NCBI RefSeq assembly: GCF_003352915.1
Contig: NZ_CP022314.1
Coordinates: forward strand, 303,093-367,092
Reading direction: 5' to 3'
DNA: 64,000 bases
DNA from: Arthrobacter sp. PM3
GTDB taxonomy: Bacteria; Actinomycetota; Actinomycetes; Actinomycetales; Micrococcaceae
Part shown: one piece after another, positions 21,503 through 36,611 of the stretch
Layout: each line of letters opens with the position of its first letter
Position numbering within the stretch: position 1 is the first letter of the stretch
Program-made: the position numbers and the translations under genes
The notes under the pieces: model-generated
Databases searched by the model: none
Told to the model about the DNA's origin: nothing
Seen by the model: the letters and a program-made list of their open reading frames with translations, nothing else

Positions 21503-22303
21503 ATGGCACGCACCGGGGACGACGGCGGCAACCCCGCCAGGCGGGATTTGAGCGGCCGGAATTTGAGCAACCTTGACTTGGGCCGGGAAAGCGCTGCCGC
21601 CGGCGGCTCGCCGGGGTTGCGGGGTTACCTGGCGGCGCCGGCAGGCGAAGGGCCGTTCCCCGCGGTCCTGATGATCCATGAAATGTTTGGCCTGAACGAC
21701 ATCACCGTCCGCCATGCGGACCGGCTGGCGGCGGCGGGATACCTGACGCTGGCCATAGACCTGTTCAGCGACGGCGGGGCCCGCCGCTGCATCGTGGCAA
21801 CCATGCGGGCGCTCTCGGCGGGCGAGGGCCGGGCCTTCACCGATCTGGCGACGGCCCGGGACTGGCTGCTGGCGTCGGGCCGGACCACGGGGAAGATTGG
21901 CGTGATCGGTTTCTGCATGGGCGGCAGCTTCGCCCTGCTGTTGGCCACCGACCGCTTCGACGCCTCGGCCGTGAACTACGGCCGGCTCCCTAAAGACCCG
22001 GACAAGGCCCTGGCCGGCGCGTGCCCGATCGTGGCCAACTTCGGCGGCAAGGACCGCAGCCTGGCCGGCGGGGCGGCGAAGCTTCAGTCCGTGCTGGACC
22101 GGCTGGGGGTGGAAAACGATGTCAAAGAGTTCCCGTCGGCCGGTCACTCCTTCCTCAATGATGCGGAGGCCGGCCCGGCGGCGCTGCGCCCGCTTTTCCG
22201 GGTCATGGGCGTCGGCCCGGATCCGGCGTCGGCCCCGGAAGCGTGGCAGCGGATCGAGGACCACTTCGCCAGGTATCTGAAGGCCGCTGAGGCTCACCCC
22301 TAG
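21503..22303 (+). CDS. dienelactone hydrolase family protein
   Basis: A 266-residue alpha/beta hydrolase of the dienelactone hydrolase family: MIHEMFGLNDITVRHADRLA holds the typical Glu, the nucleophile is Cys138 in GFCMGG, with Asp about 184 (GGKDRS) and His about 215 (GHSFLN). Family members open dienelactones in chlorocatechol pathways, but many act on unknown esters. The ATG at 21503 follows GAGGGGGAAGC. The first 30 residues are a polar extension. Its stop TAG overlaps that of the convergent XRE-cupin gene. Confidence 0.85.
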   Translation: MARTGDDGGNPARRDLSGRNLSNLDLGRESAAAGGSPGLRGYLAAPAGEGPFPAVLMIHEMFGLNDITVRHADRLAAAGYLTLAIDLFSDGGARRCIVATMRALSAGEGRAFTDLATARDWLLASGRTTGKIGVIGFCMGGSFALLLATDRFDASAVNYGRLPKDPDKALAGACPIVANFGGKDRSLAGGAAKLQSVLDRLGVENDVKEFPSAGHSFLNDAEAGPAALRPLFRVMGVGPDPASAPEAWQRIEDHFARYLKAAEAHP

Positions 22304-22920
22304 GGCGCAGCGATGGCGAGGAACCGGATCGGCAGGTCCAGCAGCTCTAGGGGTCCGTGCGGGCCTTCGCCGTCGAGGAGCAGCGAGTCGCCGGCTTCCA
22401 TGGTGTATTCGTAGGCGCCGTGGCCGTAGACCATGCGGCCGGCGAGCATGTAGATGAATTCCGTGCCGGGGTGCTGGAACAGCGGGAAGACGTCAGAGGC
22501 GTCGGTCAGCGTGACCAGCGTCGGTTCGATGGCGTCGGTGCGCCCCTTGAGGGTTCCCAGCACCCGGTACTCATGCCCGTGCTGAGTCCCGCTGCGCACG
22601 GTCAGGCTGCCCTGGCCGTTCTTGGTGAACGTCGCGTCCCGGTCGGTGTCGGCGCCGCGGAACAGGGCCGTGACCGGAATCTTCAGGCCGTCGGCCAGGC
22701 GCTGCAGGGTAGTCAGCGAACACGAGGTACTGGCCGACTCGATCTTCGAGATCATGGCCTTGGACAGGCCCGTCCGGGCGGCGAGTTCGGCGGCGGACAG
22801 CCCCTGGGCCGTCCGGTAGTGCCGGAGCTGGCCGGCAATGATCCGTTCGAGCTTGCCCGCGGCATCCTCCGCCGGCGGTTCCACTGGCACGTCCGACTCT
22901 CCGCCAGGCTGATTCGTCAT
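22300..22920 (-). CDS. XRE-cupin transcriptional regulator
   Basis: A 206-residue regulator: an N-terminal XRE helix-turn-helix (about residues 28-85; LRHYRTAQGLSAAELAARTG, then LSKAMISKIESASTSCSLTT) and a C-terminal cupin (about 120-205; HPGTEFIYMLAGRMVYGHGA, then YEYTMEAGDSLLLDGEGPHG). Such fusions control amino acid, amine or polyamine use genes and sense a small ligand in the cupin. It is the last gene of the amine operon, 29 bases after the amidase, and probably regulates it. The two stop codons with the convergent hydrolase share bases. Confidence 0.88.
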   Translation of the reverse strand: MTNQPGGESDVPVEPPAEDAAGKLERIIAGQLRHYRTAQGLSAAELAARTGLSKAMISKIESASTSCSLTTLQRLADGLKIPVTALFRGADTDRDATFTKNGQGSLTVRSGTQHGHEYRVLGTLKGRTDAIEPTLVTLTDASDVFPLFQHPGTEFIYMLAGRMVYGHGAYEYTMEAGDSLLLDGEGPHGPLELLDLPIRFLAIAAP

Positions 22921-22949
22921 CCAGCCATCATAGGCGGCAGCCGCGGCGT

Positions 22950-24206
22950 CTATCCGATCACCCGGGCCTCGCCCAGCAGGCCCGCGAGGACGTCCGCCAG
23001 GGCGCCGGCCCCGGCCTCGGCGTCGTGGTCTTCCACCAGTTCCTCCGGCGAATGCGAAATTCCGGTCGGGTTCCGCACGAACAGCATGGCGGTGGGAAGG
23101 TGGCCGGCGAGCACGCCGGCGTCGTGGCCCGCGCCGGTGTCCAGGACCGGAGCTCCCGGCAGCAGTGCCTGCAGCTCGTCGCGCAGCCCGGTGTCGAAGT
23201 GCACGGTCGGGCTCAGTGATTCGGTGCCGAAGCTGACGGTGCACCCTTCCTCGGCGGCGATGACCTGGGCGTTGAGGTGGATGGATTCGACCAGGGCGGC
23301 GGTGACCTCGTCCCGCGGGTGCCGGAGGTCGATCCACAGGTCCACGCGGGAGGCGATCACGTTGGTGCCGCCGGGGACGGGCTGGAGGCGGCCCACGGTG
23401 GCGCGGGCGTCCCGGTAGTTCCGGGCCGTGTCCCGGATGCCCAGCATGATCTTGGCCGCGGCGATCATGGGGTCCTTCCGGTCCTGCATGAGGGTGGTCC
23501 CGGCGTGGTTTCCCTGCCCGTGCACGGACAGTTTCCACCGGCCGTGGCCCAGGATGGACGAGCCGACGGCCACCGGCCGGCCGAGGTCGGCCAGCCCCCT
23601 GCCTTGTTCGACGTGCAGTTCGACGAACACGCCGATCTGCTGCAGGGCCTTACGGTCGGGGCCGATGAACCGGGGGTCCTGCCCGTTGGCCGCGGCCACG
23701 TCGGCGTAGGTGTTGCCGTCGGCGTCCCTGAGGTTGCGGGCTTTGTCCGGGTCCAGGGCGCCGGTGAGCAGGCGGGACCCCAGGCAGGCTACGCCGAACC
23801 GGGAGCCTTCCTCTTCGGGAAAGACGGCGATGGCCAGCGGCCTGCGGGGGCGGACGCCCCGGCTCTTGAGGATGTCGACGGCGGCGAGCGCGGAGGCCAC
23901 CCCCAAGGGGCCGTCGTATTCTCCCCCGCCGGGAACGGAGTCGAGGTGGCTTCCCGTGACGACGGCGTCCTTCCGCACACCGGTCGCGGTGTCCCACCAG
24001 GCCCAGAGGATTCCGTTGGTGTCGGTGGTGACATCCAGTCCCCGCCGGCCGGCCTGCTCGATGAACCAGCCCCGGAGCTCCGTTTCGGCGTGTGAGAAGA
24101 CCGGGCGGGTGTAGCCGCCGCGGTGCCTGTCGGTGCCGATTCCGGCGATGTCCCGCATGAGGCCGGTGACGGTGCCGGTGGCCGGTGTAGTGGCGGAGGT
24201 GGTCAC
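22950..24206 (-). CDS. Zn-dependent N-carbamoyl amino acid amidohydrolase / allantoate amidase family
   Basis: A 418-residue M20-like hydantoinase/carbamoylase family amidase. Metal ligands are visible as GSHLDSVPGGGEYDG (His, Asp), PEEEGSRF (Glu), ELHVEQG (His) and DTGAGHDAG (His). It should hydrolyse an N-carbamoyl or ureido compound, releasing ammonia and CO2. The substrate is not determined; N-carbamoylsarcosine-like or ureidoglycolate/allantoate-like compounds are candidates. The start is GTG at 24206, the first start of the domain, with only a weak ribosome site. It lies 29 bases downstream of the flavin oxidase gene. Confidence 0.88.
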   Translation of the reverse strand: MTTSATTPATGTVTGLMRDIAGIGTDRHRGGYTRPVFSHAETELRGWFIEQAGRRGLDVTTDTNGILWAWWDTATGVRKDAVVTGSHLDSVPGGGEYDGPLGVASALAAVDILKSRGVRPRRPLAIAVFPEEEGSRFGVACLGSRLLTGALDPDKARNLRDADGNTYADVAAANGQDPRFIGPDRKALQQIGVFVELHVEQGRGLADLGRPVAVGSSILGHGRWKLSVHGQGNHAGTTLMQDRKDPMIAAAKIMLGIRDTARNYRDARATVGRLQPVPGGTNVIASRVDLWIDLRHPRDEVTAALVESIHLNAQVIAAEEGCTVSFGTESLSPTVHFDTGLRDELQALLPGAPVLDTGAGHDAGVLAGHLPTAMLFVRNPTGISHSPEELVEDHDAEAGAGALADVLAGLLGEARVIG

Positions 24207-24235
24207 AAATCTGGTCCGTTCTGTTGGTGGTGTGG

Positions 24236-25384
24236 TCAGCCGGCGCTGATGCCGGCGGTGGCCTGCCGGAACCGGGCCGGGATGTCGCCGGCGCCGGTGG
24301 CGAGGTCGGCCGCCCACTGGCCGATCAGGGGGGCGAACTTGGCGCCGTGGCCGGAGCAGGGCGACAGGATGGTCAGACCCTCCGCCCGGTCGATGAGGAA
24401 GTCCTCGGTCGGGGTGTTGGTGAACAGGCATGTGGTCTCGGCGTAGGGTTCGGGGTCCAGTCCGGGGAGGTACTTCTGCACGTAGTCGACCACGCGCCGC
24501 CGGTTGTCCGGGTCCACGGTGCCGGTCTGGGCGGCGGCGGAGGGGATGAGCTTTCCGCCGTTGTATTCGGCGATTTTCTGCCCGGCGAAGCCGGCATCCC
24601 GGCCGCCCGGCAGTCCGTAGGTCTGGATGTCCGTGCTCTTGTGGATGAAGGTGGGCCAGTGCTGCCCGCCGCCGGGGATGTCCCGGTAGCGGAAGTGGTA
24701 GGCCTGTTCCTGCCGGACCGTGATCTCGGGCAGGCCTGCGAGGAACCCCGCGGGCAGACCGAGCTGTCCCAGGAGCCCGGGCAGCCAGCCACCGGCACCG
24801 ACGACGACACTACCGGCGTCGCACGTTTCCCCCGCGGCGGACGTCAAGCGGTAGCCTGCGCCCTGCTTGGCCACGCCCGCGACGTGCCAGCCGGTCAGCA
24901 GCCTCGCGCCGTGCTTCACGGCCTGGCCGATCATCGCTTTCACCGCGCTTTCGGCGTCGATGACGCCGGCGCCGGGGTGCCAGAGCACGGAGGTGTCGAA
25001 GGCGATGTGGGGCCAGCGGGTCCTGGCCTCGGCTGCGCTGAGGAGCTCGTGTTCCACGCCGGTGCCGGCCAGGACCCGGGCCAGGTCTTCGGGCCGCCGC
25101 TCGGGCCCGTAGTCCACGGCACCGAAGTCGGTGATGAGGTCGAGCCCGCTGGCCCGGTCCAGTTCGTCCCACAGGACCTTGGATTCGATCACGGCCCGGG
25201 TGTAGAACTCATCCGGGTAGGCGTAGCGGAAGATCCGGGCCGATCCGTGCGAGCTGCCGTCGTGGCTTGCCGGCACGGTCCGCTCCAGGATGGTCACGTC
25301 GTGGCCGCGGGAGGCCAGCTGCCAGGCGGTGGCGGCGCCGGCCAGTCCGGCGCCCACCACGACGTACTCGGACGATTCGGTCAT
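24236..25384 (-). CDS. monomeric sarcosine oxidase / N-methyl amino acid oxidase-like flavoenzyme
   Basis: A 382-residue FAD enzyme of the MSOX/MTOX family. The N-terminal dinucleotide motif is YVVVGAGLAGAATAWQLASR; SSHGSARIFRYAY matches the MSOX active-site segment. TTCLFTNTPTEDFLID contains the Cys that in MSOX binds FAD covalently, and SPCSGHGAKFAPL matches the flavin-carboxylate segment. It should oxidise a secondary N-methyl amine to formaldehyde, amine and H2O2. The ATG at 25384 overlaps the preceding stop as ATGA, fixing the start. In this operon N-methylglutamate or sarcosine are the likeliest substrates (inference). Confidence 0.88.
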   Translation of the reverse strand: MTESSEYVVVGAGLAGAATAWQLASRGHDVTILERTVPASHDGSSHGSARIFRYAYPDEFYTRAVIESKVLWDELDRASGLDLITDFGAVDYGPERRPEDLARVLAGTGVEHELLSAAEARTRWPHIAFDTSVLWHPGAGVIDAESAVKAMIGQAVKHGARLLTGWHVAGVAKQGAGYRLTSAAGETCDAGSVVVGAGGWLPGLLGQLGLPAGFLAGLPEITVRQEQAYHFRYRDIPGGGQHWPTFIHKSTDIQTYGLPGGRDAGFAGQKIAEYNGGKLIPSAAAQTGTVDPDNRRRVVDYVQKYLPGLDPEPYAETTCLFTNTPTEDFLIDRAEGLTILSPCSGHGAKFAPLIGQWAADLATGAGDIPARFRQATAGISAG

Positions 25385-26769
25385 CACTTCGCTCCCGGGA
25401 TCCAGCTGGTGCCGGCCAGGGGCACCCGGGCCATGGCGGAGGCTTCGATGGTCAGGGCCACCAGGTCCTCGGGTTCGAGGTTGCGCAGGTGGGACTTTCC
25501 GCAGGCCCGGGCGATGGTCTGGGCCTCCATGGTCAGGACCCTTAGGTAGTTGGCCAGGCGTCGGCCGCCCGCCACCGGATCCAGCCGTGCGGACAGTTCC
25601 GGGTCCTGCGTGGTGATGCCGGCGGGGTCGCGGCCCTCCTGGAAGTCGTCGTAGAAGCCCGCCGCCGAGCCGAGTGCGGCGTATTCGGCGGCGTAGCGGT
25701 GATCGTTGTCACCCAGGGCGATCAGCGCCGCGGTGCCGATCGCGACGGCGTCGGCGCCCAGGGCCATGGCCTTGGCGACGTCGGCGCCGGTGCGGATGCC
25801 GCCGGAGACGATCAGCTGGACTTTGCGGTGAACCCCGAGTTCCTGGAGGGCCTGGACGGCCTGCGGGATCGCGGCAAGGGTGGGGATGCCCACGTTTTCG
25901 ATGAAGACCTGCTGGGTTGCGGCGGTGCCGCCCTGCATGCCGTCCACCACCACCACATCGGCGCCGGCTTTCACGGCCAGGGCGGTGTCATAGTAGGGCC
26001 GGGAGGCGCCGATCTTGACGTAGATGGGCGTCTTCCAGTCGGTGATTTCGCGAAGTTCGCCGATCTTGATTTCGAGGTCGTCCGGGCCGGTCCAGTCCGG
26101 GTGGCGGCTGGCGGAGCGCTGGTCGATCCCGACCGGCAGGGTGCGCATGCCGGCGACGCGTTCGGTGATCTTCTGGCCCAGCAGCATGCCGCCGCCGCCG
26201 GGCTTGGCGCCTTGGCCCAGCACGATCTCGATGGCGTCGGCCTTGCGCAGGTCATCCGGGTTCATGCCGTAGCGGGAGGGCAGGTACTGATACACCAGGT
26301 GCTTGGACTGGCCTCGCTCCTCAGGCGTCATGCCGCCGTCGCCCGTGGTGGTGGAGGTCCCCACCTCGCTGGCGCCGCGGCCCAGCGCCTCCTTGGCGTT
26401 GGCGGACAGGGCGCCGAAGCTCATCCCGGCGATGGTCACCGGGGTCTGCAGGTGCAGCGGTTTGGAGGCGTGGCGGTCACCGAGGACGACGTCGGTGTCG
26501 CACTTTTCCCGGTAACCCTCCAGCGGGTAGCGGGACATGGAGGCGCCCAGGAACAGCAGGTCATCGAAGTGCGGGACCTTGCGCTTGGCGCCCCAGCCGC
26601 GGATGTCGTAGACGCCGGTGGCGGCTGCACGCTGGATGTCGGCGATGGTGGCACGGTCGAAGGTGGAGGACTCGCGCAGGCCAAGCGCAGCGATATCAGC
26701 CGCAGCAACGTTCTGTGCGGGGGCCTGCGCGGGCGCCTGGGCGGGGACGGGGATGGAGGTGATGGTCAA
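25384..26769 (-). CDS. FMN-binding glutamate synthase-like subunit (MgsC/GlxD-like)
   Basis: A 461-residue protein equal to the central FMN/Fe-S domain of glutamate synthase (GltB). Motifs: MSFGALSANAKEALGRGASE, GDGGMTPEERGQSKHLVYQY, GQGAKPGGGGMLLGQKI, VVVDGMQGGTAATQQVF and VSGGIRTGADVAKAMALGAD. In methylotrophs and rhizobia, MgsC/GlxD works with MgsA and MgsB to make N-methylglutamate from gamma-glutamylmethylamide or related compounds. The start is TTG at 26769 with AGGAGG seven bases upstream, and no nearer ATG. The N-terminus carries an Ala/Pro/Gln stretch. Confidence 0.88.
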   Translation of the reverse strand: MTITSIPVPAQAPAQAPAQNVAAADIAALGLRESSTFDRATIADIQRAAATGVYDIRGWGAKRKVPHFDDLLFLGASMSRYPLEGYREKCDTDVVLGDRHASKPLHLQTPVTIAGMSFGALSANAKEALGRGASEVGTSTTTGDGGMTPEERGQSKHLVYQYLPSRYGMNPDDLRKADAIEIVLGQGAKPGGGGMLLGQKITERVAGMRTLPVGIDQRSASRHPDWTGPDDLEIKIGELREITDWKTPIYVKIGASRPYYDTALAVKAGADVVVVDGMQGGTAATQQVFIENVGIPTLAAIPQAVQALQELGVHRKVQLIVSGGIRTGADVAKAMALGADAVAIGTAALIALGDNDHRYAAEYAALGSAAGFYDDFQEGRDPAGITTQDPELSARLDPVAGGRRLANYLRVLTMEAQTIARACGKSHLRNLEPEDLVALTIEASAMARVPLAGTSWIPGAK

Positions 26770-26778
26770 GGGGGCCTC

Positions 26779-27507
26779 CTAGTAGGCGGTCGAGTTGTCG
26801 ACGTGGAAGTGGTAAAGGTTCCTGGCTGAGCCGTAGCGCTTGAAGTCGGCCGGGTTCTCGGTCCGGCCGGCGGCGGCGAGCAGTTCCGCGAGTTCTTCGA
26901 AGTGTTCGGCCTTCAGCGGCTTTTCGATGCAGTCGGCGCCGAGGGACGCGACGGTGCCCTTGACGTAAATGCGGGCCTCGTAGATGGAGTCGCCGAGGGC
27001 GTCTCCGGCGTCACCGCAGACCACCAGTCGGCCGGCCTGGGCCATGAAGGCGGACATGTGGCCGATGTCGCCGCCCACCACAATGTCCACGCCTTTCATG
27101 GAGATCCCGCAGCGGGCTCCGGCGTTGCCGTCGATCACCACGAGTCCGCCGTGCCCGGTGGCCGCGGCCGACTGGGAAGCATCGCCCTTGACGTGCACCT
27201 TTCCGGACATGATGTTCTCCGCGAGGCCGACGCCGGCGTTGCCGGTGACGGTGACCTTGCCCTTCTGGTGCATGCCGGCCGCGTAGTAGCCGGCGTGGCC
27301 GTCGATGGTGACGGTGACGTCGGCAGTAATGCCGACGGCGAGGCTGTGCTTGCCGCCGGGGTTGGTGACCGTCCAGGCCTGGCCGTCGACGGCGTCGTGC
27401 AGTCCCTGGTTCAGTTCGCGGACGGTGCTGCCGGCGAGGTCGAGCACTGTGGTTTCGGCGTCAGCGGTGGGTGCCGTGAGGGTTTCGGGGGCTGTCAGAG
27501 TGACCAT
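26779..27507 (-). CDS. GXGXG-domain glutamate synthase-like subunit (MgsB/GlxC-like)
   Basis: A 242-residue protein corresponding to the C-terminal GXGXG beta-helix of glutamate synthase, with repeated turns such as VTVTGNAGVGLAENIMSGKV, VVIDGNAGARCGISMKGVDI and LVVCGDAGDALGDSIYEARI. In the split enzyme it is the structural subunit joining the amidotransferase and synthase parts. The ATG at 27507 overlaps the upstream amidotransferase gene by 13 bases, and the stop is nine bases from the FMN subunit, so the three subunits are translationally linked. Confidence 0.88.
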   Translation of the reverse strand: MVTLTAPETLTAPTADAETTVLDLAGSTVRELNQGLHDAVDGQAWTVTNPGGKHSLAVGITADVTVTIDGHAGYYAAGMHQKGKVTVTGNAGVGLAENIMSGKVHVKGDASQSAAATGHGGLVVIDGNAGARCGISMKGVDIVVGGDIGHMSAFMAQAGRLVVCGDAGDALGDSIYEARIYVKGTVASLGADCIEKPLKAEHFEELAELLAAAGRTENPADFKRYGSARNLYHFHVDNSTAY

Positions 27508-28403
27508 GTGTAGACCTTTCCGGGAACGGGTTCGAAGATGCGGGCGTTGTCGATGCCCGGCAGTGCGGCCAGGGCGCGGTATTCGGAGGCCATGGCCACG
27601 TAGTCGTCGGTCTCGGCGATGATGGCCGGCTTGCAGGCGATGGGGTCGCGGACCACGGCCATGCTGTCCGCGGTGGTGACAACGAGGGTGTAGAAGCCGT
27701 CCAGGACGTTGCCCAGGTTCACCAGGGCCTCTTCGAGGGTGTCGCCCTGCTGCAGCCGGGAGGCGACGTAGCGGGCGCCGACCTCGGTGTCGTTCTCGGA
27801 GTCGAAGACGACGCCCTCTCGCAAGAGGCCCCGCCGGACGGTGGCGTGGTTGGAGAAGGAGCCGTTGTGCACCAGGCAGAGGTCGTCCGCGACGGAGAAG
27901 GGGTGCGAGCCGCCGGCCGTGACGGCGGATTCGGTGGCCATCCGGGTGTGGGACAGGCCCTGGCTGCCGGCCATCGCCTCCAGCCCGTGCTCGGCGGCGA
28001 TCGCCATCGGGTGGCCCACGCTCTTCATGACGGCCACGTGCTCGCCGCGGCCGATCACCGTGGAGCCCGGCAGTGTTTCGGTGACGGCCTTCACCAGCAG
28101 GTCCGTGCCGACGGCGGCGCTCACCAGGGTGGTGTCACCCACCACCTGGACGGCCGGGGCCGCGTCGGCCGCGAGCAGGGACGCGACGGCGGCGGTGATT
28201 GCCGCCGTCGTCATGCCCTGGTCCTTGCCGAGGAGGCTGACGGTGGAGGTGCCGTCCGCGACCAGGCCGGGGGTGTTGTAGACGGCGAGGCCGGCGGAGT
28301 CCGGCCCGCGGTCCACGATCTGGCACAGCATCGAGGACAGCAGGCTGCCCATCCGGGGGTGCAGCGAGGGGTTGCGCAGCTGCAGCGCGGCGATTCCGCA
28401 CAT
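27495..28403 (-). CDS. class II glutamine amidotransferase subunit (MgsA/GlxB-like)
   Basis: A 302-residue N-terminal-nucleophile amidotransferase. It starts MCGIAALQLR, with Cys2 as the catalytic residue after Met removal, and has SHTRMATESAV and VHNGSFSNHATVR, as in GltB/PurF-type domains. It would bind the gamma-glutamyl amide and supply the amine (ammonia or methylamine) to the FMN subunit. The ATG at 28403 is fixed by Cys2. It follows the synthetase gene by 37 bases. Confidence 0.88.
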   Translation of the reverse strand: MCGIAALQLRNPSLHPRMGSLLSSMLCQIVDRGPDSAGLAVYNTPGLVADGTSTVSLLGKDQGMTTAAITAAVASLLAADAAPAVQVVGDTTLVSAAVGTDLLVKAVTETLPGSTVIGRGEHVAVMKSVGHPMAIAAEHGLEAMAGSQGLSHTRMATESAVTAGGSHPFSVADDLCLVHNGSFSNHATVRRGLLREGVVFDSENDTEVGARYVASRLQQGDTLEEALVNLGNVLDGFYTLVVTTADSMAVVRDPIACKPAIIAETDDYVAMASEYRALAALPGIDNARIFEPVPGKVYTWSL

Positions 28404-28440
28404 GGTGGTCCTTTTCTTGGTGTGGGTTGGAACAGTCGGT

Positions 28441-29841
28441 CTAGATCGAGGTGAGGTAGGTGCGGATTTCCCAGTCGCTGACCTGGTTGTGCCAGCTGAG
28501 GAATTCCTCTTCCTTGGCGTCCGCGTAGTAGGCGCCGATTTCCGCGTCGCCGCTCAGGCTGGCCAGGATCACCGGGTCCTTGCGGAGCGCTTCGACGGCG
28601 TGGAGCAGGGTGGCCGGCAGGAGGTGCGCGTCCGGTTTGGATTCCCCGGGGCCCGACGGCCGGCCGGGGTCGAGGGACTTTTCCACTCCGTCCAGGCCGG
28701 CGGCGACGGCGGTGGCGATGGCCAGGTAGGGGTTGGCGGAGCCGTCGCCGGAGCGCAGTTCGATCCGTTTGTTGTCCGGGACGCGGATCATGTGGGTGCG
28801 GTCGTTGCCGCCGAAGGAGGCCTTCCGCGGCGACCACGTGGCGCCCGAGGAGCTGGTGGTGGCGCCGGAGCGCTTGTAGGAGTTGACGGTCGGCGCCAGG
28901 AAGGCCTGCAGCGCCGGGGCATGGTCCAGGATGCCGCCGATGAACGAATAGGCGAGGCCGGACAGCCCCAGGCCGCGGCCGGCGTCGTCCGCTTCCCCGT
29001 CGCCCGGAAACAGCGGCTCGCCGCCGGACCAGAGGGAAAGATGGAAGTGGAGTCCGGTGCCGGTCCGGTCCGTGAACGGCTTGGGCATGAACGTGGCGGT
29101 CATGCCGCGCTGTTCGGCGAGGATGTTCAGGATGTAGCGCAGGGAGATGACGCGATCGGCCGTGGTCAGGGCGTCCGCGTAGTTGAAGTTCTGCTCGAAC
29201 TGGCCGGCGGCGTCCTCGTGGTCGTTGGCGTAGTTGCCCCAGCCCAGCGCGTTCATGGCCTCGGAGATGGAGGTCAGGTGGTCATACATGCGGGTGACGC
29301 CGCGGGCGTCGTAGCAGGGACGGGGCGAATCGTCGCGCGCATCGGCTGTGCTCAGGGTGCCGTCATCGTTCGTGTTGACCAGGAAGTACTCCACTTCCGC
29401 GCCGACCTTCGCCTGCATGCCCTGCGCGGCCAGCCGGGCCAGGGCGTTTTTCAGGATGACGCGCGGCGCGTACGGCCACGGCCGGCCGTTGACGTGCGGG
29501 TCGCAGTGGATGATTGCCAGTCCTTCCTTGATGAAGGGGACCGGGGTGAAGGAGGCGAGGTCCGGCACGGCGATCAGGTCCGCGTCCTGCGGCTTCTGGC
29601 CGATCAGGCCCGCGGCGTAGCCGGCGAAGCCCATGGCTCCTGCCTCGAGTTCGTCGGCGGCTTCCACCGGGACCAGCTTGGCGCAGGGCTTGCCGGTCAT
29701 GTCCACAAAGGTGGCCAGGAGGAACCGCACGTCGTGGGCCCGGGCGATGTCCGCCAGGGAAATCTGCCCGGCGTCGGCCGGCAGCGCGGCGTCTGATAGC
29801 GCTGACGCGCTGGGTACTTCAGGGGTTGCGACACTCGTCAT
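28441..29841 (-). CDS. glnT: glutamine synthetase-like enzyme, GlnT / gamma-glutamylmethylamide synthetase type
   Basis: A 466-residue glutamine-synthetase-fold enzyme of the GlnT/GmaS group. Visible are VGAEVEYFLV, GQFEQNFNYADALTTADRVI, FMPKPFTDRTGTGLHFHLSL and the conserved block NSYKRSGATTSSSGATWSPR. It joins glutamate with ammonia or an alkylamine such as methylamine using ATP. The ATG at 29841 (MTSVATPEV) has AGGACAG upstream; a TTG 18 bases earlier is possible. It is the first gene of the seven-gene operon and divergent from amtB. GmaS function is inferred from the mgs-like neighbours. Confidence 0.87.
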   Translation of the reverse strand: MTSVATPEVPSASALSDAALPADAGQISLADIARAHDVRFLLATFVDMTGKPCAKLVPVEAADELEAGAMGFAGYAAGLIGQKPQDADLIAVPDLASFTPVPFIKEGLAIIHCDPHVNGRPWPYAPRVILKNALARLAAQGMQAKVGAEVEYFLVNTNDDGTLSTADARDDSPRPCYDARGVTRMYDHLTSISEAMNALGWGNYANDHEDAAGQFEQNFNYADALTTADRVISLRYILNILAEQRGMTATFMPKPFTDRTGTGLHFHLSLWSGGEPLFPGDGEADDAGRGLGLSGLAYSFIGGILDHAPALQAFLAPTVNSYKRSGATTSSSGATWSPRKASFGGNDRTHMIRVPDNKRIELRSGDGSANPYLAIATAVAAGLDGVEKSLDPGRPSGPGESKPDAHLLPATLLHAVEALRKDPVILASLSGDAEIGAYYADAKEEEFLSWHNQVSDWEIRTYLTSI

Positions 29842-29974
29842 CGGAACTGTCCTGTCCAATTGGGGTTACCTGATGGGAAACGCTGTTGAACCACAGTAGT
29901 CAAAGTGATGTTACGGAAGTAGTGCCCGGGTGTTAAATCCGCGTGTCATGTCCCGGCGGCGAACGCAACAGAAA

Positions 29975-29990
29975 CTTAACCCGCACGAAA
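29975..29990 (+). promoter_or_regulatory. possible GlnR-like half box in amtB/glnT intergenic region
   Basis: TTAAC at 29975-29979, six bases, then GAAAC at 29986-29990 resembles the GTnAC-N6-GAAAC GlnR half box of Actinobacteria. Only one half is visible, so this is weak. The 253-base divergent gap contains no other feature that I recognise. Confidence 0.25.
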
Positions 29991-30094
29991 CCCGCAATCG
30001 TTCACTGCCATGAATCATGGTTTCATCCCATGGTTGCGTTGAGTTCCTCCGCAGCCGGCGGATGCTGACTTCCACCCCCACTGATTGGAGTTCC

Positions 30095-31384
30095 ATGAAT
30101 TCTGGAGACGTCGCCTGGATCCTCGCGGCAGGCGCCCTGCTGTGCATCATGATTCCCGGCCTTGCCCTGTTCTACGGCGGCATGGTCGGTTCCCGCAGGA
30201 TCCTGAACATGATGATGATGTGCTTTGGCGGCATGAGCATCGTCGCCGTCTTGTGGGCCGTATTCGGCTACTCCATGGTGTTCGGCAATTCCATTGGCGG
30301 CGCCGGGCTGCTCGGCGATGTCACCGAGTACTTCGGGATGGAGCAGCTGCTGGCCGAGGACCCGAACGCCCCCATCCCCGCGGCGCTGTTCGCGGCCTTC
30401 CAGCTGTTCTTTGCCGGCATCACCACGGCGATCATCGCCGGGGCCGCGGCCGGGCGCATGAAGTTCGGCGCCTGGATGACCTTCGCCGCGCTGTGGGCCA
30501 CCCTGGTCTACTTCCCGGTCGCCCACTGGGTGTTCGCGTTCAGCTCGGCGGACGGCTCCGTCACCGGCGGCTGGATCGTCAACAGCCTTAAGGCCGTTGA
30601 CTTCGCCGGCGGCACGGCCGTCCACATGAACGCCGGCGTGGCAGCCCTCGCCCTCGCCCTGGTCCTGGGTCGCAGCGCGGGCTGGCCCAAGAGCGAACAC
30701 ACCAAACCGCACAGCCGGCCGCTCGTGCTCGTCGGGGCCGGCCTCCTGTGGGCCGGCTGGTTCGGATTCAACGCCGGCTCGGCCCTCACCGCCGGCCAGT
30801 CCGCCTCCGTCGTGTTCCTGAACACCGCCGTCGCCGCCTGCGCCGGCCTCCTGGCCTGGGCCCTGGTGGAACGGATCCGGCTCGGCAGCGCCAGCAGCAT
30901 GGGCGCGGCCTCCGGCCTGATCTCAGCCTTGGTCGCCATCACGCCCGCGTGCGGGGCCGTCAGTCCGCTCGGCGCCCTGGCAATCGGCGTGATTGCCGGC
31001 GCGGTCTGCTCCCTGGCGATCGAGCTCAAGTTCCGGCTCGGCTTCGACGATTCACTCGACGTCGTCGGTGTCCACCTGGTCGGCGGCATCCTGGGAACCC
31101 TCCTGATCGGCTTCTTCGCCACCGACGCCGCCCCCAACAAGGTCAACGGACTGTTCTACGGCGGAGGATTCGAACTCCTCGGCATCCAGACGCTCGCAAC
31201 CGTGTCCGTGCTCGCGTACTCCTTCGCCGTGACCTGGGTTATCGCCAAGGTCCTGAGCGTCACCATGGGCCTGCGCGTCCATGAGGCCGATGAACTGCGC
31301 GGCATCGATATCGCCGCACACTCGGAGGCCGCGTACCTCAGCGACGAAGAACCGGTGGACCTCGGCTCCCCGAGCCGTGCTTAG
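30095..31384 (+). CDS. amtB: AmtB-type ammonium transporter
   Basis: A 429-residue membrane protein with about eleven hydrophobic segments. MIPGLALFYGGMVGSRRILN, the DFAGGTAVHMNAG motif, and GADLLW-like AGLLWAGWFGFNAGSAL identify the Amt/Mep/Rh family, which carries ammonium or methylammonium across the membrane. The ATG at 30095 follows TTGGAGTTCC; an ATG at 30062 in frame is also possible. It is divergent from the glnT/mgs-like operon, consistent with uptake of ammonium or methylamine for that pathway. No GlnK gene follows. Confidence 0.95.
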   Translation: MNSGDVAWILAAGALLCIMIPGLALFYGGMVGSRRILNMMMMCFGGMSIVAVLWAVFGYSMVFGNSIGGAGLLGDVTEYFGMEQLLAEDPNAPIPAALFAAFQLFFAGITTAIIAGAAAGRMKFGAWMTFAALWATLVYFPVAHWVFAFSSADGSVTGGWIVNSLKAVDFAGGTAVHMNAGVAALALALVLGRSAGWPKSEHTKPHSRPLVLVGAGLLWAGWFGFNAGSALTAGQSASVVFLNTAVAACAGLLAWALVERIRLGSASSMGAASGLISALVAITPACGAVSPLGALAIGVIAGAVCSLAIELKFRLGFDDSLDVVGVHLVGGILGTLLIGFFATDAAPNKVNGLFYGGGFELLGIQTLATVSVLAYSFAVTWVIAKVLSVTMGLRVHEADELRGIDIAAHSEAAYLSDEEPVDLGSPSRA

Positions 31385-31412: not shown

Positions 31413-31981
31413 ATGCCGTCACACGCAATTGTCAGCGCCGGCCAGCTGCCCCGCGTCCCCTGGCGCAACGGGGCGGGCACCACCCGGGAAGTCGCCCTCT
31501 TCCCGGGTGGTGCCGGCCCGGAGGGCTTCACCTGGCGGATCAGCGTGGCCGACATCACCGGGGACGCGGACTTCTCTGCGTTCCCCGGGCGGACCGGCAC
31601 TTCCTCCTCGCCACCGGCGGCACCCTGGCCATGGACGTCAACGGCGTCCGCCGCGTTGTCTCCCGGCGCCGGCCCGAAGCATTTTCCGGCGAGGACCAGG
31701 TGAGCGTCACGACGGACCGCGGGCCTGCCACAGCGATCAACCTGATCACCAGGCGGTCCGCCTGCACCGGGTCAATGGACGTCCGGCACATCGAGGGCCC
31801 TTTCGTTCCGGACCCGGCAACCGTGGCCGTGGTCCTGCTGGACGGCACCGCCGCCACAGGCGACGGCCGTACCCTGGCGCCCCTGGACTTCCTGCTCCGC
31901 AGCCCGGGCAAGGACCCGCGCCCGGGACCGGAAACACTGCACTGCCGCGCGGCCGTAGTGGCCACCCTCCGGGTGCGGTAG
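31413..31981 (+). pseudogene. HutD/Ves family protein, broken by a one-base frameshift
   Basis: The frame from ATG 31413 gives ISAGQLP-like SAGQLPRVPWRNGAGTTREV and WRISVADITGDADFSAFPG, the N-terminal half of HutD. After FSAFPG near base 31590 the correct continuation, DRHFLLATGGTLAMDVNGVR, is two bases out of frame, consistent with loss of one base, and runs to TAG at 31979-31981. HutD is a cupin-like protein often linked to histidine use; its role is unclear. The break beside ccccggg could be a real mutation or a sequencing error. Confidence 0.8.
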
Positions 31982-32997: not shown

Positions 32998-34917
32998 CTA
33001 CCCGACGAGGTTCTGGAACTCCTGGACGCGCGCGCCCGACTGCAGGAGCGGCGCGAAGAACGCGGCGAGCTCCGCCGTCGCGGTCAGGGGCAGCACGTGG
33101 GCCACGTACTGGTCCGGGCGGACCACGACCACGGCGCCGCCGCGGTCGATCCCGCGCAGGTCGAAGATGTCCGCCGCGGGATCGGTGCCGTAGACCTTCT
33201 CCAGGTACGGAAGTTGGAACGGCCCGACCTCCGGCTTGAACACCGCGGGGACCGCGCCGATATCGATGCCGGTGTGGTCCTGCTGGTAGATCACCTTGAC
33301 ATCGAACCAGGCGTCGCGGTCCAGGTTCGACGGCGTCGCGGCCAGCGGCGAGTCCGGTGCGTTCGCCAGCCAGTCGGCGAAATCCACAACCGGGCCCGGG
33401 GCCCCGGCCGGCGCCGCCGCATCGGCGAAGACGTAGATGCGCCAGCGGCCGTCCGCTGTGGCCTGGTGGCCGAGCTGGAGCGGGTTGGTGTCGCAGACGC
33501 GCACCACCGGTGCTGACTTGAACCGCTTGCCGACCGGAAAACCTGCGGCCAGGTTCTGGTGCGTCGCCTCGGCGACGATCAGCGACGGCGCGTATTCGGT
33601 CATGAAGCCGGCGGGGAACTCCGCCGTGCGGACGTAGAAGTCCTCGAGCTCGGAGGGGTTCTCGAAGTCCTCGGGCTTCTTGGCCATGAGCGTGGACCAC
33701 TGCTTGTCGAAGTCGATGAGGTTCTTCGCGACCACCTGGCGCTCGGCCGAGTAGGTGGAGAGCAGGCTGTCGGGGCTGCGGCCCTCCAGCACGTGGCCGA
33801 GCTTCCAGCCGATGTTGAAGCCGTCCTGCATGGAGACGTTCATGCCCTGGCCCGCCTTGGCGCTGTGCGTGTGGCACGCGTCGCCGGTGATGAACACGCG
33901 CGGCGTGCGGGTGCCGCGCTCCTCCGGCAGGACGTCGTCGAACCGGTCAGTGAGGCGGTGGCCGACCTCGTACACGCTATGCCAGGCGACATTGCGCACG
34001 TCGAGCGTGTAGGGGTGGATGATCGCGTTGGCCTTGGCGATGATCTGCTCGATGGTGGTCTTGCGGACCGCGCCGTTGTCGTCCGCGGCAACTTCACCGA
34101 GGTCGACGTACATGCGGAAGAGATGGCCGCCCTCGCGCGGGATCAGCAGGATGCTGCCGCCGTCGTGGGACTGGATGGCGCACTTGAGGCGGATGTCGGG
34201 GAAGTCGGTGGACGCGAGCACGTCCATGACGCCCCACGCGTGGTTGGCCTGATCGCCGGCGAGCGTGCAGCCGATCGAGTCCCGCACCTTGCTCCGCGCG
34301 CCGTCGGCACCGATCACGTACTTCGCCCGGACGGAGCGCGTCTGGCCTTCGTCGGGGCCGGCCGTGTGCACGAGGGTCACGGTGACCGGGTACTCGCCCT
34401 CACCGACCTCGAGGCCGACGAACTCGTAGCCGTAGTCCGGTGCCATGCGGGTGGGCGCGTTGGCCATGAACTCACCGAAGTAGTCCAGCACGCGGGCCTG
34501 GTTGACGATCAGGTGCGGGAACTCGCTGATGCCCCTCTCGTCGTCGACCGCGCGGGCGGCACGGACGATGCGCGAGGGGTCCGCCGGGTCCGGCTTCCAG
34601 AAGGCCATTTCGGTGATGCGGTACGCCTCGGCGATGATCCGCTCGGCGAAACCGAAGGCCTGGAAGGTCTCGACGCTCCTGGCCTGGATACCGTCGGCCT
34701 GGCCGATGGCGAGCCGTCCGCCGCGGCGCTCCACGATCCTCGTGGTGACGCCCGGAAACTGGGACAGCTGCGCGGCCGCGAGCATGCCCGCGGGTCCGGT
34801 GCCCACAATGAGGACGTCCACCTCGTCGGGAAGCCGGGCCGGGCGGTCGATCCCGGTGCCGGCGGCCGGCTGAACTCGCGGATCTCCGGATACGTAACCG
34901 TGATGGTGAAAATGCAC
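32998..34917 (-). CDS. mobA: FAD-dependent aromatic hydroxylase, 3-hydroxybenzoate 4-monooxygenase (MobA)-like
   Basis: A 639-residue class A flavoprotein hydroxylase. The N-terminal FAD motif is VDVLIVGTGPAGMLAAAQLS; YVIGADGARSKVRDSIG is the DG motif, and GDACHTHSAKAGQGMNVSMQ is the second FAD site. The C-terminal thioredoxin-like domain (about 450-630) is typical of phenol hydroxylase/MobA. Length and the start MHFHHHGYVSGDP match MobA. The start is GTG at 34917 with GAGGAAAG upstream. It is divergent from the homoprotocatechuate operon, so it may instead hydroxylate a hydroxyphenylacetate to feed that operon (inference). Confidence 0.85.
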   Translation of the reverse strand: MHFHHHGYVSGDPRVQPAAGTGIDRPARLPDEVDVLIVGTGPAGMLAAAQLSQFPGVTTRIVERRGGRLAIGQADGIQARSVETFQAFGFAERIIAEAYRITEMAFWKPDPADPSRIVRAARAVDDERGISEFPHLIVNQARVLDYFGEFMANAPTRMAPDYGYEFVGLEVGEGEYPVTVTLVHTAGPDEGQTRSVRAKYVIGADGARSKVRDSIGCTLAGDQANHAWGVMDVLASTDFPDIRLKCAIQSHDGGSILLIPREGGHLFRMYVDLGEVAADDNGAVRKTTIEQIIAKANAIIHPYTLDVRNVAWHSVYEVGHRLTDRFDDVLPEERGTRTPRVFITGDACHTHSAKAGQGMNVSMQDGFNIGWKLGHVLEGRSPDSLLSTYSAERQVVAKNLIDFDKQWSTLMAKKPEDFENPSELEDFYVRTAEFPAGFMTEYAPSLIVAEATHQNLAAGFPVGKRFKSAPVVRVCDTNPLQLGHQATADGRWRIYVFADAAAPAGAPGPVVDFADWLANAPDSPLAATPSNLDRDAWFDVKVIYQQDHTGIDIGAVPAVFKPEVGPFQLPYLEKVYGTDPAADIFDLRGIDRGGAVVVVRPDQYVAHVLPLTATAELAAFFAPLLQSGARVQEFQNLVG

Positions 34918-35138: not shown

Positions 35139-36611
35139 TTGGAACAGGTCACCGACCACCTCCTGGCCGCGGCCCGCAAGGTCATCGCGGTGCATATCAA
35201 CTACCCCAGCCGGGCAGCCCAGCGCGGCCGGACCCCGGAACAGCCCTCCTACTTCCTGAAACCGTCGTCGTCCCTGGCAACCGGTTCGGCGGAAGCGCCT
35301 TCGACGGTGGAGCGCCCGGCCGGCTGTGAGCTCCTCGGCTACGAGGGCGAGATCGCCCTGATCATCGGCAAGCCCGCCCGCCGCGTGGGTATTGAGGACG
35401 CCTGGAGCCACGTGGAGTGGGTCACTGCGAGCAACGACCTCGGCGTCTACGACCTCCGATACGCGGACAAGGGCTCCAACCTGCGGTCCAAGGGCGGTGA
35501 CGGCTTCACCCCCGTGGGTCCGGGCCTGATCGCCGCGGACGCCGTGGATCCCGCGGCCCTCCGGGTCCGCACCTGGCACAACGGGGACATGGTCCAGGAC
35601 GACACTACCGAAGACCTGCTCTTCCCCTTCGCCCGGCTGGTTGCGGACCTGTCCCAGCTGCTCACGCTCGAAGAGGGCGACATCATCCTCACCGGCACCC
35701 CGGCCGGCGCCTCCGTCGCCCTGCCCGGCGACGTCGTCGAGGTCGAAGTCAGCGCCGGCAACCTCACCACCGGCCGCCTGGCCACCCGGGTGGCGGAAGG
35801 CACGACGCCGTTCGCGGACTTCGGCGCCCGGCCCAGGACCGATGATCTCCAGCGCGAGGAAGCGTACGGTTCGCGTGAAGCGGCGGGGCTGGCCGCCGTC
35901 GGGCACAACCTGTCCCCGGAGCTGAAGGCGAAGCTGGAAAGTGTCTGCACCGCCACCCTTTCCTCCCAGCTGCGCAAGCGCGGGCTGAACAACGTCAGCA
36001 TTGACGGCCTCACCTCCACCCGTCCGGAGCAGCGGATCGTGGGCCTGGCCCGGACCCTGCGCTACGTGCCCAACCGCGAGGACCTCTTCACAACCCACGG
36101 CGGCGGTTTCAACGCCCAGAAGAAGGCCATCGATTCCGTCAACGAGGGCGAGATCCTGGTCATGGAGGCCCGCGGCGAAAAGGGCACCGGCACCATCGGC
36201 GACATCCTGGCCCTCCGCGCCCAGATCCGCGGGGCGGCGGCCATCATCACCGACGGCGGCGTCCGCGACTTCTCCGCCGTCGCCGCGATGGACATGCCCA
36301 CCTATTACGCCAACCCGCACCCCGCTGTGCTGGGCCGCCGGCACATCCCATGGGACACGGACATCACGATCGCCTGCGGCGGCACCACCGTGCAGCCCGG
36401 GGACATCATCGTGGCCGACTCCGACGGCATCCTGGTGATCCCGCCGGCCCTCGCCGAGGAGCTCGCGGACGACTCCATCGCCCAGGAACGGGAGGAGACC
36501 TTCATCGCCGAGATGGTGCAGCAGGGCCACAGCGTGGACGGCCTGTACCCGCTGAACGCCGCGTGGCGGGTTAAGTACGAGCAGTGGGAAGCAGGCAAAG
36601 CCAATGACTGA
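35139..36611 (+). CDS. hpaG: FAH family isomerase/hydrolase fused to an RraA-like domain (HpaG role)
   Basis: A 490-residue two-domain protein. Residues about 15-240 are a fumarylacetoacetate-hydrolase domain (YEGEIALIIGKPA, NDLGVYDLRYADKG, TGTPAGASVALPGD). Residues about 255-475 are RraA-like (TLSSQLRKRGLNN, GTIGDILALRAQIRG, AAAIITDGGVRDF with the metal-binding DGGVRD). In the homoprotocatechuate path HpaG decarboxylates and isomerises 5-oxopent-3-ene-1,2,5-tricarboxylate; E. coli HpaG is two FAH domains, while here the second is RraA-like, a family containing oxaloacetate decarboxylases and aldolases. The start is TTG, with GAGGAG six bases upstream, and no nearby in-frame ATG. Confidence 0.85.
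   Translation: MEQVTDHLLAAARKVIAVHINYPSRAAQRGRTPEQPSYFLKPSSSLATGSAEAPSTVERPAGCELLGYEGEIALIIGKPARRVGIEDAWSHVEWVTASNDLGVYDLRYADKGSNLRSKGGDGFTPVGPGLIAADAVDPAALRVRTWHNGDMVQDDTTEDLLFPFARLVADLSQLLTLEEGDIILTGTPAGASVALPGDVVEVEVSAGNLTTGRLATRVAEGTTPFADFGARPRTDDLQREEAYGSREAAGLAAVGHNLSPELKAKLESVCTATLSSQLRKRGLNNVSIDGLTSTRPEQRIVGLARTLRYVPNREDLFTTHGGGFNAQKKAIDSVNEGEILVMEARGEKGTGTIGDILALRAQIRGAAAIITDGGVRDFSAVAAMDMPTYYANPHPAVLGRRHIPWDTDITIACGGTTVQPGDIIVADSDGILVIPPALAEELADDSIAQEREETFIAEMVQQGHSVDGLYPLNAAWRVKYEQWEAGKAND

Follow-up and report, generated by a model that had tools for sequence, protein, structure and literature searches.

The N-methylglutamate (NMG) pathway of Methyloversatilis, Methylocella and Pseudomonas is encoded by gmaS, mgsABC and mgdABCD, and its four-subunit dehydrogenase MgdABCD is folate-linked, the folate-binding chain being a feature of MgdC. 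In Pseudomonas sp. C5pp, as described in PMC8292978, mgdABCD sits with purU and folD, which take formaldehyde to formate via folate, and an Amt gene accompanies the pathway genes, as it does in the locus described here. For methylotrophic Mycobacterium, PMC5023230 assigns the potential dehydrogenase to mgdA-D clusters of their own, and it reports its Arthrobacter strains to lack a gma-mgsABC cluster. Here, we analyze a window of 64,000 nucleotides from Arthrobacter sp. PM3 (genome G000 in our sample; contig NZ_CP022314.1, positions 303,093 to 367,092), which carries seven closely packed minus-strand genes in the order GmaS-type synthetase, MgsA, MgsB, MgsC, single-chain flavin oxidase (OX), amidohydrolase (AMID) and XRE-cupin regulator, with amtB in divergent orientation. 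The spacing from the synthetase (GS) to the regulator is 37 bases, an overlap, 9 bases, an overlap, 29 and 29 bases, so the gene coordinates and family matches bear out a preliminary description of the window that had placed the seven genes within 37 bases of one another or overlapping. The gene-neighborhood comparison proposed in that description recovers the same or nearly the same order in named Arthrobacter, Pseudarthrobacter and Cryobacterium genomes; the operon is therefore not a chance arrangement. Pseudarthrobacter chlorophenolicus Mor30.16 (L020) also carries the operon. Our principal conclusion, held with good confidence, is that a single chain takes the place of the four-subunit MgdABCD in this NMG operon.

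This conclusion draws on the distribution of oxidases among genomes with MgsB relatives (Mgs+ genomes). The family sample of 61 genomes includes 6 of these and the class sample of 394 includes 44, giving 49 different genomes overall. Three oxidase types were distinguished: OX, counted at an identity of at least 43%, with 35-38% paralogs elsewhere in the host, G097, G251, G266 and G292 left out; SLOTB, a single-chain SoxB-like enzyme that scores 125-151 bits against TIGR01373, whose cut-off is 529; and Mgd-type SoxD, a designation given here by score (79-93 bits) and place. In the class searches, scoring covered the best 4 candidates per genome each for OX, SLOTB and AMID, with a maximum of 7 in the case of MgsB, while the OX search of the 49 Mgs+ genomes scored up to 39 candidates; absences are not absolute in either case. 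On this basis, OX occurs in 11, SLOTB in 31 and Mgd-type SoxD in 7 of the 49 genomes, and the three sets are disjoint and together cover all 49. The pattern lends support to the earlier suggestion that the locus encodes an NMG pathway in which a single-chain oxidase stands in for MgdABCD, and shows that the gene set is not unique to Arthrobacter sp. PM3 and is one of three alternative versions across Actinobacteria.

The oxidase genes also lie close to the synthase genes, and those of the single-chain types usually follow MgsC directly. OX is at most 5 kb from MgsB in all 11 OX-bearing Mgs+ genomes, as is Mgd-type SoxD in five of its seven, while SLOTB lies inside the operon in 25 of 31 genomes (24 times directly after MgsC) and elsewhere in six; in genome G388 it directly follows MgsB, with no MgsC found in that stretch. 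A SoxB-like gene adjoins the Mgd-type SoxD, with 519 bits in L165 and 516 bits in L172. SoxD of any type was not found among the candidates scored in 29 of the 31 SLOTB genomes and 5 of the 11 OX genomes, and the remaining six OX genomes, among them that of the host, carry one scoring 121-130 bits at another place. In the host, a single SoxD (126 bits) was detected, as part of a soxBDAG-SHMT cluster about 209 kb from the operon, and no SoxD-like MgdB was found near the host mgs genes. In a check of five extra family genomes and the host, the best identity to SLOTB was 33%. Across the class sample of 394 genomes, 31 of the 35 with SLOTB and 8 of the 16 with OX are Mgs+ (Fisher p 2e-31 and 8e-5, values that are indicative only because the genomes are related). 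OX and SLOTB are distant relatives (26% profile identity); two different single chains therefore appear to fill one role.

The synthetase and synthase genes are of the kinds required at the start of the pathway. By sequence, GS finds its two best PDB matches in 7cql, the GmaS structure of PMC7948447 under the title Type III glutamate--ammonia ligase, and 9qur (Glutamate--methylamine ligase). Eight of the nine positions compared (K30, A48, D177, E179, E186, N188, W300 and R312) are kept in 62 or 63 of 63 aligned sequences, the window included. The sole mismatch is position 175, Gln in GmaS, where 62 of the 63 sequences carry Ala and one, another GS paralog of 31% identity (L033), carries Ser. 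The residue roles are those given in PMC7948447: catalytic D177, E186 and R312 are present, Ala replaces Asp50', and Trp replaces the Glu of the Glu-flap. Like GmaS, GS therefore lacks two residues of true glutamine synthetases, the Asp that binds ammonia and the Glu of the flap, and is a GmaS-type synthetase that we predict to be methylamine-dependent. Beside it, MgsABC is encoded as three separate subunits, with class II glutamine amidotransferase, GXGXG and FMN domains, respectively.

OX was aligned with monomeric sarcosine oxidase (MSOX) and compared at residues that matter in that enzyme; all 17 of the MSOX residue letters used agreed with the PDB chain. H45, R49, R52, Y254, K265, C315 and K348 are retained, and the Cys for covalent attachment of flavin adenine dinucleotide (FAD), already noticed in the preliminary description, is confirmed as OX C319, the counterpart of MSOX C315. 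The pocket differs by M245I, F256L, H269Y, Y317F and F342C, with further changes T48A and E57D; MSOX H269 and Y317 correspond to positions 274 and 321 of OX. An AlphaFold model built with 18 sequences (predicted local distance difference test score 90.6) superimposes on MSOX, 7exs, NikD and N-methyltryptophan oxidase (MTOX) with query template-modeling scores of 0.83-0.88. OX thus combines the FAD Cys, Lys265, the Arg52/Lys348 carboxylate pair and a predicted MSOX fold. Among NCBIfam models, it reaches neither the threshold of N-methyltryptophan oxidase (229 of 257 bits) nor that of soxA_mon (193 of 480 bits). Among the positions listed as basic residues that could receive a gamma-carboxylate, none cleanly separates Mgs-linked from unlinked OX. 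The host holds a second MSOX/MTOX-like oxidase, 38% identical to OX, near LysR-like genes (G000 contig C1, 895368-896477; L171).

Taken together, the genes most likely form a nitrogen-scavenging methylamine operon, that is, an NMG pathway with OX for MgdABCD, complemented by AMID and the XRE-cupin protein. Gene content, layout, replacement pattern and conserved catalytic residues are observed; what the enzymes act on and produce, which way the flux runs, how the operon is regulated and what AMID does are inferred. AmtB would let in (methyl)ammonium; GmaS would join methylamine to glutamate, yielding gamma-glutamylmethylamide, which MgsABC would convert to NMG; and OX would oxidize NMG, regenerating glutamate and releasing a one-carbon unit, with hydrogen peroxide as an expected product. 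AMID, of the type found in histidine utilization (hut) operons, might clear or use N-formylglutamate derived from the same carbon, and the XRE-cupin protein would control the operon. PF11927, the dimethylamine monooxygenase/N-demethylase family, occurs in 25 of the 49 Mgs+ genomes and lies at most 11 kb from MgsB in five of the 49, three times beside OX operons and twice beside SLOTB operons; DmmA family membership was confirmed in one named Cryobacterium locus (L028; NF041259, 110 bits).

Several observations weigh against this reading. PF11927 was not found in the host genome, so the host would use methylamine directly, and its own soxBDAG could in principle oxidize NMG. Among 124 loci classed for gene content, with the window left out and some loci cut by contig ends, OX occurs without MgsC in 56 of 83 OX-bearing loci, of which 34 have neither MgsC nor AMID and 22 have AMID (one of the latter, L021, has an MgsC fragment only). 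The active-site letters of these Mgs-free OX are identical to those of most Mgs-linked OX. Finally, AMID relatives (E <= 1e-80) are found in 187 of the 394 class genomes without enrichment among those with Mgs (25/44 versus 162/350, p 0.12), a genome-wide control that rules out AMID as an essential pathway gene.

Given these shared active-site letters, the substrate range of OX may be wider and extend to other N-methyl amino acids. Carried further, OX would oxidize N-methyl amino acids in general, or sarcosine, and its place beside Mgs would be a secondary convenience, an explanation that is also favored by Mgs-free clusters that combine OX and AMID with LysR, an ornithine-cyclodeaminase-family gene and AmtB. 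We consider it unlikely, given the one-of-three partition, the soxBDAG available to the host for sarcosine, and an OX tree in which most early branches carry Mgs-linked sequences, although its midpoint root is unsure and Mgs-free relatives exist at 43-45% identity. Sarcosine as the sole substrate of OX is weakened by the soxBDAG-SHMT cluster of the host. The Mgs-free clusters, in L043, L044, L056, L073, L074, L178 and L180, consist of LysR, an ornithine-cyclodeaminase-family gene named "tyramine oxidase subunit B", OX, AMID and AmtB, some with PII and HutD. Cryobacterium copies L040, L080 and L081 look decayed: Mgs is missing from the stretch, and either OX or AMID is incomplete.

AMID belongs to the M20 carbamoylase/allantoate family, and its best PDB match is the L-carbamoylase 3n5f. 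Fold family, NCBIfam name and this match favor a carbamoylase or allantoate-type enzyme that would admit ureido or N-carbamoyl amines, as the preliminary description had suggested, but this function now appears improbable in view of the genomic context of its relatives. Of 20 hand-picked AMID places, four lie beside OX or SLOTB, three of them picked for that reason; 15 of the remaining 16, which have no adjacent oxidase, hold at least one hut-cluster gene. The full order hutU-AMID-hutF-hutI occurs in L182, L191, L194 and L197 and partially in others, with hutI, hutF, hutU and hutH of L197, hutF of L191 and hutU of L188 confirmed by NCBIfam and the rest assigned by clustering. These hut-operon AMIDs are 48-67% identical to that of the window, and the catalytic motifs are invariant across 18 sequences from hut and oxidase loci. 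A scan of ten genes flanking related loci, a small sample, showed no hydantoinase and no other hydantoin or ureide gene, and the host operon likewise contains no hydantoinase. HutD often accompanies AMID.

Beside hutU and hutF, N-formylglutamate needs hydrolysis. The canonical enzyme HutG/FGase (PF05013) was detected in 3 of 36 genomes searched, 3 of 15 when hut-AMID genomes are considered, and was not found in the host; AMID itself is an M20 protein and not a canonical HutG. Relatives in hut clusters and shared active-site motifs thus make AMID a candidate alternative, M20-type N-formylglutamate amidohydrolase, and its hut-type relatives and HutD company point to N-formylglutamate as the putative substrate. 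In Table 3 of PMC3223725, COG0624 figures as a predicted alternative N-formylglutamate deformylase, but no such activity is reported for the Streptomyces avermitilis protein of this group, which may be an ortholog of AMID.

Where oxidase and Mgs lie apart, AMID keeps to the oxidase. It is present in 20 of 27 Mgs+OX loci and 4 of 24 scored Mgs-SLOTB loci, and where SLOTB lies away from Mgs, in six genomes, AMID is its direct neighbor in five; in the sixth, G381, the two are on different contigs. The detached SLOTB-AMID pairs are those of G301, G170, G115, G257 and G396, with Mgs on other contigs or, in G170, about 277 kb off. AMID-type genes therefore pair with both OX and SLOTB. The AMID-linked SLOTB sequences form a single clade (7 rows; Shimodaira-Hasegawa-like approximate likelihood ratio test, SH-aLRT, 100), and a quick reconstruction of the AMID tree, with SH-aLRT support only and a midpoint root, puts the SLOTB-linked AMIDs in two distinct regions, one of which lies within the hut AMIDs. 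HutD-family proteins may bind formylglutamate. Of the 19 loci with a HutD-family gene, 16 also carry AMID (Fisher p 1.5e-5, with relatedness left out of account), and 32 loci with AMID lack HutD.

With a hut-type hydrolase encoded next to the single-chain oxidase, the one-carbon unit may pass through N-formylglutamate, with direct release of formate, rather than through folate as in Pseudomonas sp. C5pp. In such a route, AMID-coupled oxidases would take NMG through the carbinolamine to N-formylglutamate in two rounds of flavin oxidation (four electrons), and AMID, apparently recruited more than once from histidine degradation, would hydrolyze it to glutamate and formate, avoiding free formaldehyde and folate steps. 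We regard these two steps, taken jointly, as a tentative possibility. They would account for the hut-cluster relatives, for the 33 of 36 genomes without canonical HutG/FGase, for the pairing with both oxidase types even away from Mgs, for the tree positions of the AMID-linked SLOTB and SLOTB-linked AMIDs, and for the HutD association. A residue pattern offers further, weak support: among seven Mgs-linked OX loci without AMID, four (L126-L129) keep H269 and Y317 of MSOX, while AMID-coupled OX carry Tyr or Phe at 269 and Phe at 317. However, this state is unspecific, as it also occurs in the other three AMID-free loci (L130, L024 and L026, where the contig ends), and position 269 is Tyr or Phe in 27 of 29 OX sequences that lie near neither of Mgs and AMID. 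The change thus characterizes a large OX clade and may go back to a single event. The Streptomyces protein reported without deformylase activity, the 20 of 24 scored SLOTB operons without AMID, the lack of AMID enrichment in Mgs+ genomes and the OX relatives without Mgs also speak against the formyl route. Alternatively, OX could yield formaldehyde with N-formylglutamate as a minor by-product rescued by AMID. This conjecture, on which we place similarly limited weight, suits an optional AMID and the existence of AMID-free systems for both oxidase types, but leaves unexplained why AMID stays with the oxidase and not with Mgs where those two separate.

Table. Features of the NMG operon and adjoining genes, in window coordinates.
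Feature	Coordinates	Strand	Remarks
GS, GmaS-type gamma-glutamylmethylamide synthetase (type III GS)	28441-29841	-	ATG start, TTG at 29859 possible; Gln-synt_C 270 bits, TIGR03105 585 bits
MgsA-like, class II glutamine amidotransferase subunit of N-methylglutamate synthase	27495-28403	-	GATase_6 PF13522 58 bits; Cys2 present (MCGIA)
MgsB-like, stand-alone GXGXG structural subunit	26779-27507	-	PF01493 38 bits
MgsC-like, FMN glutamate-synthase domain subunit	25384-26769	-	Glu_synthase PF01645 309 bits
OX, MSOX-family single-chain flavin oxidase, proposed N-methylglutamate oxidase	24236-25384	-	DAO 166 bits
AMID, hut-operon-type M20 amidohydrolase, proposed N-formylglutamate amidohydrolase	22950-24206	-	GTG start; M20 63 bits; NF006770 616 bits, named allantoate amidohydrolase
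XRE-cupin regulator	22300-22920	-	HTH_3 46 bits and Cupin_2 34 bits
AmtB ammonium/methylammonium transporter	30017-31384	+	PF00909 Ammonium_transp 380 bits; divergent from GS
GS/AmtB shared control region	29842-30016		Alignment of 10 rows
HutD-family gene, split over two frames	31414-31978	+	PF05962; two pieces, 67 and 96 bits

The XRE-cupin regulator is a common neighbor of the Mgs operon and adjoins Mgs in most loci. Upstream of gmaS, positions 29842-29950 are conserved among close Arthrobacter-type relatives in the 10-row alignment and contain repeated GTAAC/GTTTC words. Near matches to the GlnR box lie at 29865-29880 and 29976-29991; GlnR control of the operon was rejected, since both matches are imperfect and the window shows no enrichment of the motif. 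The HutD-family gene after AmtB is either broken or affected by a sequencing error, as its two pieces lie in different frames. Farther downstream, a fumarylacetoacetate hydrolase-RraA fusion (35139-36611, plus strand; NF009399, 893 bits) neighbors an FAD monooxygenase-like gene (32998-34917), named by eye only.

The preliminary description knew of no pathway with this exact gene set. That view holds in part: no description of a single-chain N-methylglutamate oxidase was found in the open-licence PMC literature, which leaves most subscription papers uncovered, so that a prior description is possible, while the set itself extends beyond the strain. The phrases "N-methylglutamate oxidase" and "N-methyl-L-glutamate oxidase" do not occur in the 9 open-licence PMC papers found to contain two of five related terms. 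In the same literature, no paper was found that joins methylamine with N-formylglutamate and formate, and nothing useful on the HutD ligand or the formyl route. Surveys that demand mgdABCD would miss methylamine users with single-chain enzymes, for which OX or SLOTB are possible markers. Formaldehyde is toxic, and an exit as formate would avoid it; if the AMID link does mean N-formylglutamate, it would represent a new way of burning a methyl group in which no free formaldehyde arises, and would link the use of methylamine to the breakdown of histidine.

Compared with the NMG pathway of Methyloversatilis, Methylocella and Pseudomonas, the window operon shares GmaS and MgsABC homologs but differs in having one MSOX-family chain for MgdABCD, no folate-binding chain and an added hut-type amidohydrolase. 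Within the MSOX/N-methyltryptophan oxidase/NikD family, OX has the same predicted fold and R49, R52, K265, C315 and K348, and is set apart by its pocket substitutions and its linkage to an NMG-synthase operon. AMID shares its catalytic motifs with the M20 amidohydrolase of actinobacterial hut operons, which SEED annotates as an alternative N-formylglutamate deformylase, but its partner is a flavin oxidase where the hut-operon enzyme has hutF. Similarly, the gma-mgsABC cluster of methylotrophic Mycobacterium, as presented in PMC5023230, provides GmaS and MgsABC in an actinobacterium, as in the window; unlike the Arthrobacter strains of that study, Micrococcaceae here possess gma-mgsABC, together with OX.

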